A stretch of 34,422 bases of DNA from Fimbriimonadales bacterium. GTDB lineage: Bacteria; Armatimonadota; Fimbriimonadia; Fimbriimonadales; Fimbriimonadaceae. Below the pieces are notes generated by a model. That model was not told the DNA's origin. It saw nothing but the letters and a program-made list of their open reading frames with translations, and searched no databases. The stretch covers positions 1 to 34,422 of the forward strand of contig JAOACB010000026.1 in NCBI GenBank assembly GCA_026418055.1. Reading direction: 5' to 3'. The translations under genes and the position numbers were made by a program. This document shows, piece after piece, positions 3,412 to 13,838 of the stretch. The stretch's first letter is position 1. Every line of letters starts with the position of its first letter.

Positions 3412-4554
3412 ATGTCCAGTCTGTCCGCCTCTGCCGCCCCCGCCGAAGCGGCAGAACCATGGGGCACGGACCAACGGCCTAGCTCGTCGCTGGCTCCGCA
3501 AGACCTCGTTGAGATCCTGAACCAGCTCTTTCTAGCTCGCTATTTCGACGTTCGGCTGATCAAGGAGAAGAAGCGCGGGCACCTTCGGGGCACCCTGTAT
3601 TCCAGCCACAACCAAGAGGCGATCCTGGTTGGTGCGCTGTACGGTCTCGAGCCGTTCGACTGGATCAGTCCGATCCACCGAGACATGCCGGCTTTCTTCC
3701 TGAAGGACCTGAAGAGCGGTTGGCGGAACCCGGACCGCATCGGAATGAGCATCCAGGAGGTCTGCGCTCAGATCTGGGGCAAGGCGGCCTCACCGGGGCG
3801 GGCCCGGGACAACTGGTCTCACATCGGTTCGCGGAAGAAGCGGATCATCCACTCCACTTCGATGCTCGCGAGCACTGTGCCTGTGGCCGCGGGAGTGGCC
3901 TACTCGGAGAGGCTGAGAGGCTCGAAGGCGATCGTGCTGACGTTCAACGGCGAGGGAGCCACCGCGCGGGGGGACTTCCACGAGGGTCTGAACTTCGCCG
4001 CCGTGCACAAGTTGCCGATGGTGACGGTGATCGAGAACAACATGTGGGCCTACGGGACCCCTTTGGAGCTCGGCTGTCCGACGCCGTTCGTCGCGGACCG
4101 GGCGAAAGGTTACGGGATACCGGGCCTGGTGGCGGACGGTCAGGACGTGTTCGACGTGTACGACAAGGTGCGCTGGTGCATCGACTACGCCCGTGCGGGA
4201 CACGGCCCCACTGTGGTCGAGTGCCGCACCTACCGTGCCTACGGCCACGGGGACCACGACGACGACCGGGCGAACAAGTACCGTAGCCCGGAGGAGGTTG
4301 CAGAAGGACGCCGTCGTGACCCGATCGCCATCTGCAAGGAGCGCCTGGTCGAGCTCGGAATCTTGGCCCGGGAGGAGGCGGATCGCTACCAGCCCGAGGG
4401 CAAGAGCGCGTCGGAAGTGCGAGACGAGGACTTCCCGCCCGATGTGGTGGCGTACGTCCGGGAGGGGGTCCAGTTCGCCATCCGCAGCCCGTATCCGGAC
4501 GCCGAGGAGGCGGGCTGGTGGGTGTTCCATGAGGAGGGGGAGCCGCAACCGTGA
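3412..4554 (+). CDS. pdhA: Pyruvate/2-oxoacid dehydrogenase E1 component, alpha subunit
   Basis: 380 residues, the usual length for the alpha subunit of heterotetrameric E1. It decarboxylates a 2-oxoacid on thiamine diphosphate and passes the acyl group to the lipoyl domain of E2. The thiamine diphosphate/Mg motif is present as GEGATARGDFHEGLNFA (residues 180-196), ending in IENN near 207-210. The SHIGSRKKRIIHSTSMLAS segment is the phosphorylation-loop region of the family. Pyruvate versus branched-chain 2-oxoacid specificity cannot be decided from the sequence. The ATG at 3412 is chosen because AGGAG lies at 3398-3402; an in-frame TTG at 3403 sits inside that spacing. A TACAAT hexamer at 3368-3373 could be a -10 element, but no good -35 is seen. 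The stop overlaps the pdhB start (GTGA, 4551-4554). Confidence 0.93.
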   Translation: MSSLSASAAPAEAAEPWGTDQRPSSSLAPQDLVEILNQLFLARYFDVRLIKEKKRGHLRGTLYSSHNQEAILVGALYGLEPFDWISPIHRDMPAFFLKDLKSGWRNPDRIGMSIQEVCAQIWGKAASPGRARDNWSHIGSRKKRIIHSTSMLASTVPVAAGVAYSERLRGSKAIVLTFNGEGATARGDFHEGLNFAAVHKLPMVTVIENNMWAYGTPLELGCPTPFVADRAKGYGIPGLVADGQDVFDVYDKVRWCIDYARAGHGPTVVECRTYRAYGHGDHDDDRANKYRSPEEVAEGRRRDPIAICKERLVELGILAREEADRYQPEGKSASEVRDEDFPPDVVAYVREGVQFAIRSPYPDAEEAGWWVFHEEGEPQP

Positions 4555-5564
4555 GTCTCGCCGCTGAATCCGCCGTGGGAGCGAAGCGCAACTATCTGCA
4601 GGCGCTGAACGAAGCGTTGCACGAGGAGATGGCGAGGAACCCGGACATGATCTGTCTGGGTGAGGACATCGGCCTGTTGGGCGGCGCCTTCGGAGTGACC
4701 GAGGGCCTGCTGGCCCGCTTCGGCTCGGAAAGGGTGATCGACACTCCGATCAGCGAGAGTCTGATCGTTGGTGCCGCCGTGGGCATGGCGCTGGAAGGCC
4801 GCACGGTGATGGCCGAGATGCAGTTCATCGACTTCATCTCCTGCGGTTTCGACCAGATCGTGAACAACCTTGCAACCTTCCACTACCGATCCGCGGGAGA
4901 GGTGAGCATGCCCGTGGTGATCCGCGGCCCCGCCGGAGCCTACGGTGGCGGTGCCCTCTACCACAGCCAGATGAACGAGGCATGGTTCTGCCACTCCCCA
5001 GGACTGAAGGTGGTTTGCCCCAGCAGGCCCTACGACGCCAAGGGACTCTTGAAGGCGGCTTTGCGGGATGGCAACCCTGTCGTGTTCTTCGAGATCAAGG
5101 AGCTTTACCGGAGACGAGAGTTGGAGGAGGCCGTTCCCGGACCCGATGAGATCGTTCCGATCGGCAAGGCCGCCGTTCGGCGCGAGGGAAGGGACGTCAC
5201 GCTGATCAGCTACGGTCAGAACGTGTACCACTGCCTGGCCGCCGCGGACAAGCTGCAAGAGGAAGGGATCCAGGCCGAGGTCATCGATCTGCGCAGCCTC
5301 GTGCCTCTGGATGAGGACACCATCTTGGCGTCGCTGGCCAAGACCAGCCGGGTCGTCGTGGTCAACGAGGCTCCTCGGACGTGTGGTTTCGCGGGAGAGG
5401 TTCTGGCCCGCATCGCGGAGCTGGGCTTCGAGTATCTGGATGCGCCACCCGTCCGCGTCACACGCCTCGACACGCCGGTCCCGTGGGTCAAGCCCCTCGA
5501 GTCGTACGTGTTGCCGGACGTGGAGAAGGTCGCGCTGGCCTGCCGCAAGGTGTGCTCCTACTGA
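4551..5564 (+). CDS. pdhB: Pyruvate/2-oxoacid dehydrogenase E1 component, beta subunit
   Basis: 337 residues that align end to end with E1-beta. They include the N-terminal NYLQALNEALHEEMARNPDM start, the GEDIG and GGAFGVTEGL segments, the EMQFIDFI stretch, and the C-terminal transketolase domain with VIDLRSLVPLDEDTI and VVVNEAPRTCGFAGEV. It forms the alpha2-beta2 E1 with the preceding gene. It starts at a GTG (4551) that overlaps the pdhA TGA by four bases, which implies translational coupling. No E2 (lipoyl acyltransferase) or E3 gene follows: the next gene is an unrelated membrane protein 25 bases downstream. The rest of the complex must be encoded elsewhere. Confidence 0.93.
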   Translation: MSLAAESAVGAKRNYLQALNEALHEEMARNPDMICLGEDIGLLGGAFGVTEGLLARFGSERVIDTPISESLIVGAAVGMALEGRTVMAEMQFIDFISCGFDQIVNNLATFHYRSAGEVSMPVVIRGPAGAYGGGALYHSQMNEAWFCHSPGLKVVCPSRPYDAKGLLKAALRDGNPVVFFEIKELYRRRELEEAVPGPDEIVPIGKAAVRREGRDVTLISYGQNVYHCLAAADKLQEEGIQAEVIDLRSLVPLDEDTILASLAKTSRVVVVNEAPRTCGFAGEVLARIAELGFEYLDAPPVRVTRLDTPVPWVKPLESYVLPDVEKVALACRKVCSY

Positions 5565-5577
5565 GATCCCTCTGCGG

Positions 5578-5583
5578 TAGTCT
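5578..5583 (+). promoter_or_regulatory. TANNNT leaderless-type -10 (TAGTCT)
   Basis: TAGTCT sits exactly six bases before the ATG at 5590, and no Shine-Dalgarno sequence lies in the short gap after pdhB. This is the same spacing as at 12003, 13476, 15143 and 21647. No -35 is visible. Confidence 0.45.
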
Positions 5584-5589
5584 GTCGCC

Positions 5590-6123
5590 ATGGAAGACTC
5601 CTCCGGACATCGCTTCCTCGAATTGGAATATCGAACCCTGCGCGAGGAAATCCTGCAGAACGATCGGGTTGTTCCATGGCTGCTGGGCGTCGGCTTCTTC
5701 GCCATCAACCTCACGCTGCTGATCGCGGCTTCGTCGGAAGAGACCCGCGGCCTCGGGCTCCTCACCATCTTCGCGTACCTGCTGTTCTCACAGTTGATCG
5801 CTCACAAGGCGGAAGCGACGGCGCGCATCGGCAGCTACCTTGCTGAGTGCCTGGAACCGACGCTTCCGGGTGCGTCGTGGGAGCGCAGGCTTCGGCGCAT
5901 GGATCTGCGCCTTTGGTGGCTGAATCCCTCGCTGCTGCTCGCTTGGAACACGTCGCTGGGTCTTTTGGTCCTGTGGAAGGACAAGGGGCTTCTTGCCGTG
6001 GTTGGGGTGCTCGTGTTCGCGTACCTCCAGCACCGCTCGCTCAAAAGGCTCGCGGGACCGGATGGCTTCGCCCGGCGATGGCGCGAGATCGGCTCCGGCC
6101 TAGAGCAAGGATCGGATCGATAG
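5590..6123 (+). CDS. Conserved small membrane protein, unknown function
   Basis: 177 residues, not recognised as a named family. An N-terminal cytoplasmic stretch (LELEYRTLREEILQND) leads into two hydrophobic helices at about 30-46 and 53-68. A charged amphipathic middle follows, then two more helices at about 112-126 and 131-145, and finally a basic tail. This helix-pair layout resembles small polytopic proteins with unknown roles. It lies 25 bases after pdhB on the same strand and could be co-transcribed, but it also has its own TANNNT-N6-ATG element and no Shine-Dalgarno. A classical terminator at 6238-6269 closes the unit. Confidence 0.65.
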   Translation: MEDSSGHRFLELEYRTLREEILQNDRVVPWLLGVGFFAINLTLLIAASSEETRGLGLLTIFAYLLFSQLIAHKAEATARIGSYLAECLEPTLPGASWERRLRRMDLRLWWLNPSLLLAWNTSLGLLVLWKDKGLLAVVGVLVFAYLQHRSLKRLAGPDGFARRWREIGSGLEQGSDR

Positions 6124-10163: not shown

Positions 10164-11140
10164 CCTGCCGTGCCGAAGACCCCCATGGAGCGGTACTTGC
10201 GGTACCGCTGTTCGCGGAGTTCCTCCGGGGTGAGGCCCGACAGTTCCTTCAGCGAGCGCTCGAGCTCGTCGCCGAGGCTCAGCGCCGCGACGTCCGGGGC
10301 CCTGTGGGCGCCCCCCTTCGGTTCGGGAACGATCCTGTCGATCAGGCCGAGCTCCATGGCCGACTGTGCCGTGAGCCGCAAGGCGGCCGCAGCTTCGTCG
10401 CCGCGTTCCGGTTGCCGCCAAAGGATCGCGGCGCAACCCTCCGGGGGAATGACGCTGTAGACCGCGTGCTCGAGCATGAGCACGTGGTTGCCGACGCCGA
10501 TGCCGATCGCTCCCCCAGAGCCTCCCTCTCCGATCACCGCGGCCACCGTCGGCACCCGGAGACCAAGCATGGTCAGGATGGAGTCGGCGATCGCCTCCGA
10601 GATCCCTCTCGACTCGCTGTCCACTCCCGGGTCCGCCGCGGGGGTGTCGAGCAGGGCCACCACGGGAAGCCCGAACCGATCGGCCATCTGCATCAGTCGG
10701 ATGGCTTTGCGGTAGCCCTCGGGCTTGGCCATGCCGAAGTTGCGGTACTGCCTCTGCTGGATGTTCCGGCCTTTCTGGTGGCCTAGGATCACGATCGGTC
10801 GGCCTCGGAACACCGCCGGCCCGCCGACGATGGCGGGGTCGTTGCCGTACCGTCGGTCGCCCTCGAGCTCGATGAATTCGGAGCAGATGGCTTGGATGAA
10901 GTCGAGCGTGTACGGCCTCGGCTCCGCACGGGCGACGAGCACTTTCTCCCAGGGCCCGAGCTGCGAATACTGCGTGTCGATGTACTTGGCCAGTCTCGCC
11001 TCGTACTCTGCGATCTTGGACTCCAAGGCCTTGCGCTTGGCCGAGTCGGCCTCCTTGGCGGCCATCTGACGGAGCTTGGCGATGCCGTCTTGCAGCTCCA
11101 GGACGGGGCCTTCCCACTCCTTCCACGTCTTAGCCGGCAT
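10160..11140 (-). CDS. accA: Acetyl-CoA carboxylase carboxyltransferase subunit alpha
   Basis: 326 residues, full length for AccA. It moves the carboxyl group from carboxybiotin-AccB to acetyl-CoA in fatty-acid synthesis, as a complex with AccD. It has the N-terminal helical hairpin, GHQKGRN (120-126), PEGYRKA (140-146), the oxyanion region GEGGSGGAIGIG and VIPPEGCAAILW. One departure from the usual sequence: the segment normally written DTPGAYPG is DTPAADPG (165-172), and the next turn reads SESRG in place of EERG. The ATG lies inside the 3' end of accD (11-base overlap), so the two subunits are translationally coupled. Confidence 0.95.
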   Translation of the reverse strand: MPAKTWKEWEGPVLELQDGIAKLRQMAAKEADSAKRKALESKIAEYEARLAKYIDTQYSQLGPWEKVLVARAEPRPYTLDFIQAICSEFIELEGDRRYGNDPAIVGGPAVFRGRPIVILGHQKGRNIQQRQYRNFGMAKPEGYRKAIRLMQMADRFGLPVVALLDTPAADPGVDSESRGISEAIADSILTMLGLRVPTVAAVIGEGGSGGAIGIGVGNHVLMLEHAVYSVIPPEGCAAILWRQPERGDEAAAALRLTAQSAMELGLIDRIVPEPKGGAHRAPDVAALSLGDELERSLKELSGLTPEELREQRYRKYRSMGVFGTAG

Positions 11141-11915
11141 AGCACCGTGCCCCCAGAATGCGCACCAAGGCGGCCAGAACGTCCCTCAACTCACCGCGAG
11201 CGACGATGCGGTCGATGAAGCCATGCTTGTGGGCGAACTCGGCCATCTGGAAATCGTCCGGCACCTTGCCGACCCCAGCCTGCTTGCTGACCCGGGCGCC
11301 CGCGAAACCGACCATCGCCCGCGGCTCCGCCAGAATCACGTCGGCCACGGAGGCGTAGCTCGCGAGCACGCCCGCCATGGTCGGATCGGTGAACACGGCG
11401 ATGTAGGGAACTCCTGCGTCGCGGCAACGCTGCACGCCCGCGTTGGTCTTGGGAAGCTGCATCAGCGACAGCATGCCCTCCTGCATGCGGGCTCCGCCCG
11501 AGGCGCAGAACTGGATCGCGGCGCACCGCCGCTCCGCCGCCCGCTCCAACGAGCGAACGATCTTCTCTCCTGCCACCGAACCCATGGAACCGCCCATGAA
11601 GGCGAAATCGGACACCGCCACGGACACGGGAAGACCATCGAGGCGAGCCATGCCGCTGACGATCGCATCCCGCAAGCCGGTCTTCTGCTCCGCCGCGGCG
11701 AGCTTTTCCCGGTACTCGGGGAAGCCCAGCGGGTCCACCGAAACCAGGTCGGCGTCCAACTCCTCGAACGTGCCTGGATCGAAGGTGGCCTCGATGCGCT
11801 CCCGAGCGCTGAGCCTGTGGTGCCAGCCGCAGTGCCCGCACACCTTCCACGACTGCATCAACTCGGTGTGGAACAGCACGCGGCCGCAACCGGAGCACTT
11901 GATGAATTCAGCCAT
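11130..11915 (-). CDS. accD: Acetyl-CoA carboxylase carboxyltransferase subunit beta
   Basis: 261 residues, somewhat shorter than E. coli AccD (about 300) at the termini. The N-terminal zinc ribbon is complete: Cys7, Cys10, Cys26 and Cys29. The crotonase-fold core follows with FMGGSMGSVAGEKI, the substrate-binding FCASGGARMQEG and DPTMAGVLASYAS. It pairs with AccA. The start is the ATG at 11915 because it begins the zinc-ribbon domain directly; the same frame is open far upstream only because it shadows pafA. It is divergent from pafA across 87 bases. Confidence 0.95.
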   Translation of the reverse strand: MAEFIKCSGCGRVLFHTELMQSWKVCGHCGWHHRLSARERIEATFDPGTFEELDADLVSVDPLGFPEYREKLAAAEQKTGLRDAIVSGMARLDGLPVSVAVSDFAFMGGSMGSVAGEKIVRSLERAAERRCAAIQFCASGGARMQEGMLSLMQLPKTNAGVQRCRDAGVPYIAVFTDPTMAGVLASYASVADVILAEPRAMVGFAGARVSKQAGVGKVPDDFQMAEFAHKHGFIDRIVARGELRDVLAALVRILGARCYAG

Positions 11916-12002: not shown

Positions 12003-13466
12003 ATGGATGCCCTTCGACGCAGGATCGTCGGGGTCGAAACCGAGTTCGGTTGCCTCGTGTCGGACGAGGATCTGGGACGTCCGGAGGACGCCGTCGAGGC
12101 GATCAAGGACTACCTGTTCCTCGACGCGAAGGTCGGGGTTCTGGACGTCGTTGCCCGAGACGAGGTCTTCGAGCCGGCGCAGTCCGGGGGATTCCTGCTC
12201 AACGGTGGGCGCCTGTACATCGACGCGGTGGGATCGCACCTGGAGTACGCGACCGCCGAGTGCACGAACCTGCGCGATCTCATCGCCCACGACCGTGCCG
12301 GCCAGAGGCTGATCCTCCGCGCTCTGGACGAGCTCCGGCTCAGCGATGCCGTGAGCGTCTACAACAACTCCATCGACCACTTCGGTGGGCACACGTTCGG
12401 TTGCCACGAGAACTACCTTGTGGCAGGCGAGGAGATGATCGGCGGAGTGGCCGCCATGAAGCTTTTGGGCTTCCTGGCGACGCGTCAGATCTTCGCCGGC
12501 GTCGGCCGTGTGGGTGGCCACTTGCTCGTCGAGGGCGGTCGACCGAGCCCTCGGGAGATGGCCCGCAACCCCGTGGACTTCATCTGGGTGGGCCACGTCT
12601 ACGACGTTCTGCCGGACGACTCGGTGCGCTTCCAGCTCAGCCAGCGCGCCGATCACATCCTCAAGCCTCTGGCGAGCCGCGTGCGGTTCAACCGGGCGAT
12701 GATCAACCCCAAGTGGGAGCACCTGTACAGCTACGGCGGCACCACGCGCCTGCACCTCCTGTTCGGGGAGGCGAACCAGAATGAGTACGCCTATGCGCTG
12801 AAGGTCGGCACGACCATGCTCGTTCTCAGGCTGCTGGAGGAGGGTCGCATCGAGGATCGGTGGGTCGTGGCGAACCCGGTCCGGGCTTTGCGCGAGGTGA
12901 GCCGAGACGAGACTTGGCGCTGGGAGGTGCGGCTGGCTGACGGCATGGAGATCCGAGCCGTCGACCTGCAGCGCGAGTATCTCGATAGGGCGCAGGCCTT
13001 TCGCGGCTGGGACGAGGACACGGACTGGACGCTGGACGCCTGGGAAGAGGTTCTCGACGGATTGGAGAGGGACCCGATGGCCCTTGCCGATCGCTTGGAC
13101 TGGGTGGCCAAGCGCAGGATTCTGGAGCAGTACATCGAGGCGGAAGGCGCGACCTGGAGCGACGACGCTCTGCATTCGGTCGACCTCGAGTACCACAACA
13201 TCGATCCGGAAAAGAGCCTGTTCCACGCTTTCGCCGAGTCCTACGGAGTGCGGAGGCTCGTTTCGGAGCAGGACATCGTGCGCGCGATGGACGCCGCGCC
13301 TTGCGACACGCGGGCGGCCGCTCGAGCGGAGCTGATCCGCAGGCTTCTTTCCCTGAAGGGACGCAAGCTGTTCGCCGTGGACTGGAGCGGCGTCTCTGCT
13401 GGGCCCCGAACGTATTTCGACCTGAGCGACCCGTTCGATCCCACGGTGCCCGAGCCGGCAAGGTAG
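12003..13466 (+). CDS. pafA: Pup/UBact-protein ligase family enzyme (PafA/Dop)
   Basis: 487 residues of the glutamine-synthetase-like PafA/Dop family. PafA attaches the small modifier Pup (or Pup-like UBact) to lysines; Dop deamidates Pup and removes it. Visible motifs: GVETEFG (10-16, Mg/ATP glutamates 12 and 14), NGGRLYID (67-74, with Asp74 at the catalytic aspartate position), SHLEYATAEC (78-87), HDRAGQR, NNSIDHFGGHTFGCHENY, FQLSQRADHI, KVGTTMLVL, LDWVAKRRILEQY and a C-terminal VDW...SDPFDP. HDRAG, the AKRR segment and the DPF tail favour PafA over Dop. However, about 50 residues separate EFG from NGGRLY, against roughly 36 in actinobacterial PafA as I recall it, and LERDPM resembles Dop. 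Ligase is the better guess; deamidase is possible. No pup, mpa or proteasome gene is in the window. Confidence 0.82.
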   Translation: MDALRRRIVGVETEFGCLVSDEDLGRPEDAVEAIKDYLFLDAKVGVLDVVARDEVFEPAQSGGFLLNGGRLYIDAVGSHLEYATAECTNLRDLIAHDRAGQRLILRALDELRLSDAVSVYNNSIDHFGGHTFGCHENYLVAGEEMIGGVAAMKLLGFLATRQIFAGVGRVGGHLLVEGGRPSPREMARNPVDFIWVGHVYDVLPDDSVRFQLSQRADHILKPLASRVRFNRAMINPKWEHLYSYGGTTRLHLLFGEANQNEYAYALKVGTTMLVLRLLEEGRIEDRWVVANPVRALREVSRDETWRWEVRLADGMEIRAVDLQREYLDRAQAFRGWDEDTDWTLDAWEEVLDGLERDPMALADRLDWVAKRRILEQYIEAEGATWSDDALHSVDLEYHNIDPEKSLFHAFAESYGVRRLVSEQDIVRAMDAAPCDTRAAARAELIRRLLSLKGRKLFAVDWSGVSAGPRTYFDLSDPFDPTVPEPAR

Positions 13467-13475: not shown

Positions 13476-13838
13476 GTGGATCGGCGTTGGTTCGCGGTGG
13501 GGTGCCTGATGGCGGCTCTTGCGGTCGGGCTGGGCGCCTTCGGCGCTCATGGTCTGAGGCCCCACCTGGACGACCGAGGGCTGGAGCTGTATCGGACCGC
13601 GATCCAGTACCTCATGCTCCACTCGTTGGGGGTGATCGTTGCGGGCATGGTCCGTGTTCGGAGCTCCGCGCTCGCTGCGTCGCTGTTCGCGCTGGGGAGC
13701 CTGCTGTTCGGCGGGTCCCTGATCGCTCTGGCGCTGGGGGGTCCCAGATGGATGGGTATCGTGGCCCCGCTCGGAGGGATCTCCTTCGTCTTCGGTTGGA
13801 TCCTCTTGGCCGTCGGCGCGTTCGTGGGTAAGCCGTGA
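13476..13838 (+). CDS. DUF423 family membrane protein (YgdD-like)
   Basis: 120 residues with four hydrophobic helices. The family hallmark is at the N-terminus: a first helix, then LGAFGAHGLRPHL (20-32) and YRTAIQYLMLHSLGVI (39-54), followed by FALGSLLFGGSLIALAL. This is the standard DUF423/YgdD length and pattern. The family is widespread in the cytoplasmic membrane and its function is not established. It starts at a GTG nine bases after the PafA-like stop codon, with no Shine-Dalgarno but a TANNNT element. The stop overlaps the next gene's GTG by four bases. Confidence 0.88.
   Translation: MDRRWFAVGCLMAALAVGLGAFGAHGLRPHLDDRGLELYRTAIQYLMLHSLGVIVAGMVRVRSSALAASLFALGSLLFGGSLIALALGGPRWMGIVAPLGGISFVFGWILLAVGAFVGKP

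Follow-up and report, generated by a model that had tools for sequence, protein, structure and literature searches.

The protein P0001 most probably is the ligase, in the role of PafA, of a UBact-proteasome system that is complete but has its genes dispersed, a reading to which we assign a probability of roughly 0.87. UBact is a small bacterial tag protein, a cousin of Pup, that marks proteins for destruction. P0001 belongs to the Pup ligase family and is orthologous to the gene that takes the PafA position in UBact gene clusters, and all its partners are present in the genome. Orthology, residues and gene content together suggest both the reaction that it would catalyse, ligation, and the direction of that reaction, and the separate Dop in the genome and the cluster position of the orthologues point to P0001 as the UBact ligase of a two-enzyme system. 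The gene, which has no partner beside it in the window, by which we mean the whole stretch of DNA analysed (34,422 nucleotides), is thus settled as part of a full UBact-proteasome system (Table 1). As a member of this known system, P0001 is ordinary, if distantly branching. Three points speak against a wholly ordinary verdict: its clade lies outside actinobacterial PafA, it has an NPKWExxY motif with Lys, and its alpha-loop is non-helical in the structure model.

Table 1. P0001, its neighbours and its distinctive segments, in window coordinates
Feature	Position	Strand	Basis
accD, divergent neighbour, outside the system	11130..11915	-	TIGR00515, 322.7 bits, over cut-off
UBact/Pup-type protein ligase (PafA-like), P0001	12003..13466	+	487 aa; PF03136 match; orthology with PafA-position gene of UBact clusters
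Residues 17-66, 50-residue segment between EFG and NGG	12051..12200	+	Alignments, length comparison
Asp74, corresponding to the catalytic Asp64 of C. glutamicum PafA	12222..12224	+	Invariant in 31/31 orthologues
Residues 235-238, NPKW in place of PafA/Dop NTRD	12705..12716	+	Alignment; K237 at the place of R227
DUF423 membrane protein gene, downstream neighbour, outside the system	13476..13838	+	PF04241, 83 bits

The gene and its neighbourhood

The reading frame begins at an ATG, and the GC content at its codon positions (0.70/0.42/0.85) argues that it is a real gene. P0001 matches the Pup_ligase family PF03136 over its full length (E 3.1e-123, 412.5 bits, cut-off 25). It scores 287.5 bits against the PafA equivalog TIGR03686, far below the curated cut-off of 551.3, and is therefore filed as a PafA-like UBact ligase and not as a canonical PafA equivalog; its score against the NCBIfam Dop model, 278 bits, is nearly equal and also far below the cut-off.

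The first-pass annotation had placed P0001 between accD and a DUF423 gene, and the TIGR00515 and PF04241 matches bear this out. The start codons of accD and P0001 are 87 bases apart, and accA lies on the far side of accD. A divergent accD is close by in 12 of the 80 loci, 11 of which also have accA, and is not beside the gene in the others; we therefore rejected accD as a functional partner of P0001 and take the adjacency to have been inherited by some members of the family.

Partner genes elsewhere in the genome

The window is the entire contig 53 of an assembly of 2.89 Mb in 135 contigs that is 97% complete. Searches of contig 53 found no UBact, Dop or proteasome gene, so that the earlier remark on the missing neighbours holds for this contig. 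It does not hold for the genome, where the search that the first-pass annotation had proposed yielded a second PafA/Dop-type gene, UBact, Mpa/ARC, PrcA and PrcB; the absence of Pup/UBact and of the proteasome was therefore rejected. The genome has two Pup_ligase genes, P0001 and one on contig 120 (match 4314-5645). The latter is a Dop homologue (4170-5657) with a full Dop-loop, and is followed by UBact and then PrcB. The UBact protein is 59 residues long, ends in YRQRSGQ and passes the cut-offs of both NF033388 (75.1 bits, cut-off 35) and PF20513. Contig 52 carries PrcA (TIGR03691, E 1.4e-26, below cut-off), and contig 96 carries the Mpa/ARC ATPase (TIGR03689, 431 bits, below the cut-off of 504.75), both proteasomal-ATPase OB domains of which score over cut-off. 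PrcB, PrcA and Mpa/ARC are below the curated NCBIfam cut-offs and above those of Pfam. Together with the ligase, the components are spread over four contigs of one genome.

Pup that ends in Gln requires a deamidase ahead of ligation. The C-terminal Gln of this UBact would imply the same requirement, which is consistent with a two-enzyme system. UBact would be made carrying the Gln, and the separate Dop would deamidate it to Glu. P0001 would bind ATP-Mg in its GxExE beta-cradle and phosphorylate the gamma-carboxylate of this Glu, and the resulting acyl-phosphate would be attacked by a substrate lysine. Proteins so tagged would be drawn by the Mpa/ARC ring into the 20S proteasome formed by PrcA and PrcB, and the tag would be taken off and recycled by Dop. 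Among relatives, the C-terminal residue of UBact switches between Gln and Glu, even between close ones, and hence it seems that the requirement for deamidation arose or disappeared on several occasions.

Orthologues, co-occurrence and gene order

Co-occurrence was assessed in 101 genomes, namely the genome itself and others ranging from the same genus out to the same phylum. Pup_ligase matches are present in 95 of them, with at least two matches in 79 and a single one in 16, and 12 of these 16 genomes are less than 90% complete. UBact was found in 85 genomes and is absent from all six that lack Pup_ligase; in 10 of the 101, Pup_ligase is present and no UBact was found. Two genomes of the same family (G030 and G048; 1.5 Mb, 97% complete) have neither, and the system seems to have been lost there with genome reduction.

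The alignments separate two clear orthologue groups, with 26 P0001-like and 22 Dop-like rows, and the orthologues of P0001 are 50-85% identical to it. In several further families of Armatimonadota, as well as in Bipolaricaulota, the gene order is (ARC-)Dop-UBact-PrcB-PrcA-PafA with the P0001 orthologue last. It follows Dop-UBact-PrcB-PrcA in L073, L075, L077, L150, L161, L164, L170 and other loci, some of which have ARC ahead. Dop and UBact adjoin the orthologue in 7 of the 80 loci, and PrcB-PrcA is present in one further locus, whose contig is short. No locus examined in the window's own family shows partner genes beside the P0001 orthologue, which counts for little because many of the contigs are short and a single-sequence search was used. 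One locus (L098), from a record named 'Methanoregulaceae archaeon isolate SJ84', has a UBact ligase that shares 64-65% identity with P0001 and probably belongs to a mislabelled or contaminated MAG.

Divergent Pup_ligase proteins in other clusters

A different cluster is present in other Armatimonadota families (L211, 850-8694 on contig 18 of G095; L210, 8396-12792 on contig 39 of G093). It encodes a JAB-like peptidase and an Mpa-like AAA+ ATPase that contains a proteasomal OB domain, along with a pair of divergent Pup_ligase proteins, of which one is fused to TPRs. A 101-residue protein that ends in GRGAGG and has a weak SAMP1 match (E 0.0066) was seen in L211 only. Judged from these sequences, the cluster looks like a Pup-ligase pair that works with a ubiquitin-like GG modifier. 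A search of 291 genomes from the phylum brought up close relatives (at least 44% identity) of one of these ligases in 5, and our literature search found nothing that plainly describes such a cluster. Further divergent Pup_ligase-like genes lie outside UBact clusters in genomes G092, G094 and G100 (L212, 7074-8414; L213, 10960-11892; L214, 7308-8807).

Residues that separate PafA from Dop

According to PMC7947786, 22 positions (its Table 1) discriminate PafA from Dop, and Dop becomes a ligase when 20 of them are changed and the Dop-loop is removed. At these 22 positions, as given there, P0001 has the PafA state in 12 (F39, S61, F64, the VGS insertion, G77, S78, A83, T84, A85, H218, S225 and D460), neither state in 10 (K35, Q60, I73, L220, K221, P222, A224, R226, F229 and N230), and the Dop-specific state in none. 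A. cellulolyticus Dop shares T84, and at A85, 18 of the 31 orthologues have Pro, which is the state found in Dop. K35 and F39 were read from the hmmsearch alignment; MAFFT misplaces C. glutamicum positions 37 and 41, which precede a gap. The mixture of PafA-like (HDRAG, SDPFDP) and Dop-like (LERDPM) motifs noticed earlier is real, but it is not diagnostic; none of the 22 positions is Dop-specific. GxExE, R70, Y72, D74, H79, E81 and R231 are kept in all 31 orthologues, and R231 is the counterpart of PafA R201, which pairs with the C-terminus of Pup. The suggestion of a diverged ligase is supported by orthology and by PafA-type residues with no Dop-specific state.

Actinobacterial PafA, actinobacterial Dop and UBact-Dop share the motif NTRDEPHA, where the P0001 clade has NPKWExxY. 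PMC8599861 describes R227 of A. cellulolyticus Dop as holding the catalytic phosphate. The equivalent position is Lys in 31/31 ligase orthologues and Arg in 27/27 UBact-Dops. C. glutamicum PafA keeps the Arg, and the Lys is therefore a mark of the clade and neither a mark of ligases nor a separator of Dop from PafA.

The segment between EFG and NGG

The segment had been estimated at about 50 residues in P0001, at about 36 in PafA and at more in Dop. Counted by the same measure, it has 50 residues in P0001, 36 in two actinobacterial PafAs and 74 in three actinobacterial Dops, in agreement with those figures; in the UBact-Dops, it has 76-81 residues in 26 of 27 (one unmeasured). P0001 thus lacks the Dop-loop (40-65 residues) and has only about 14 residues more than actinobacterial PafA. 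The description as an insert of intermediate length stands as to length, but the segment is a property of the clade, with 49 residues in 6 orthologues, 50 in 24 and 54 in one. An insert peculiar to P0001 was accordingly rejected, as it is present in all orthologues. The orthologue alignments show many invariant residues within its 50 positions (K35, F39, G45, D48, R52, F56-E57-P58 and G62-G63), so that the segment, conserved across the clade, is probably functional and no random insert. In the structure model, residues 48-60 are coil apart from a pair of isolated bridge residues, and pLDDT averages about 74 across positions 51-60; this lends slight support to the earlier alternative that the extra residues are just a surface loop.

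Structure model and the question of a single enzyme

The AlphaFold2 model of P0001 (40 sequences, mean pLDDT 88.4, pTM 0.92) aligns along its whole length with both Dop (Foldseek 1.0e-31) and PafA (Foldseek 5.4e-31), with Z scores of 41.8 to Dop and 37.8 to PafA. The A1 profile (hmmsearch) gives 315 bits to Dop and 288 to PafA, and both kinds of comparison thus slightly favour Dop. The alpha-loop forms an alpha-helix in PafA; in the model of P0001, where it spans residues 218-230, it is non-helical, with a pLDDT of about 70.

This mixed resemblance, the non-helical alpha-loop and the intermediate length of the EFG-NGG segment would fit a single enzyme responsible for tag ligation as well as tag removal, as the first-pass annotation had considered. 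We regard such an enzyme as highly improbable, because a separate Dop with a Dop-loop is encoded beside UBact and PrcB in this genome, at least two family members occur in 79 of the 101 genomes, none of the 22 discriminating positions is Dop-specific, and the phosphate-anchoring Arg of Dop is Lys in every orthologue.

Phylogeny

In a tree of 63 rows, the UBact ligases (100/100) and the UBact-Dops (84/84) each form a branch of their own, and actinobacterial PafA groups with actinobacterial Dop (92/85). A second tree, of 59 rows, agrees (100/100, 97/94 and 93/88, respectively), and the UBact-ligase clade is not nested in actinobacterial PafA in the best tree of either set. Both trees are unrooted and have long branches, and they sample actinobacterial PafA by only two sequences and Nitrospirota by none; the sequences of the divergent clusters, one of them on a very long branch, were no help in rooting. 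Of the findings that the first-pass annotation had named as speaking against its reading, a Dop elsewhere in the genome is present, and a placement firmly inside canonical PafA is at odds with the position of the clade in the best trees.

Taken at face value, the grouping of actinobacterial PafA with Dop would make PafA and the UBact-ligase clade non-orthologues, and ligation would have arisen or been remodelled separately in the UBact lineage, giving a third enzyme type. We consider this improbable: constraining all ligase-type sequences to one clade costs 5.06 log units and is not rejected (AU p 0.276), the branches are long and the sampling of PafA is as narrow as stated, and P0001 and PafA have the VGS insertion, H218, F64 and D460 in common. 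A more specific proposal, which we hold to be doubtful, is that the UBact ligases of Armatimonadota and Bipolaricaulota may form a third deep branch of Pup ligases with remodelled chemistry. The conserved 14-residue flap before strand beta-2 would replace the Dop-loop, and the Lys at the position of the phosphate-holding Arg, together with the unhelical alpha-loop, would steer ligation versus hydrolysis differently.

Comparison with known systems

In the portions of the literature retrieved by our search on UBact, no treatment of UBact enzymes was found, and the word mostly seemed to be used in other senses. The search also found nothing that links pupylation with Fimbriimonas, and no mention of UBact was found in the accessible part of PMC7203096. 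As far as these searches show, the UBact ligase is a known kind of enzyme that has been little explored at the enzyme level. The clade is distant from all solved PafAs, and its NPKW motif, 14-residue segment and alpha-loop offer a natural test of the residues that decide between ligation and hydrolysis.

P0001 has the same fold as the actinobacterial Pup ligase PafA (C. glutamicum, PDB 4B0T/4BJR; Z 37.8, 431 residues aligned), and shares with it the active-site residues, the lack of a Dop-loop, the VGS insertion after the catalytic Asp, and D460. It differs from PafA in about 14 more residues before NGG, NPKWExxY for NTRDEPHA, a different alpha-loop sequence, one extra residue after the catalytic Asp, and UBact instead of Pup as its partner. 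With the depupylase/deamidase Dop (A. cellulolyticus, PDB 4B0R/7OYH), it shares the fold (Z about 41-42), the catalytic Asp and an LERDPM-like stretch. Unlike Dop, it is without the Dop-loop and without Dop-specific residues at the published positions, and has Lys for the phosphate-holding Arg. UBact conjugation systems of Gram-negative phyla were reportedly described by Lehmann et al. in 2017. This genome resembles them in having UBact, Dop, PrcA, PrcB and the ATPase, and differs in that the genes are spread over four contigs.
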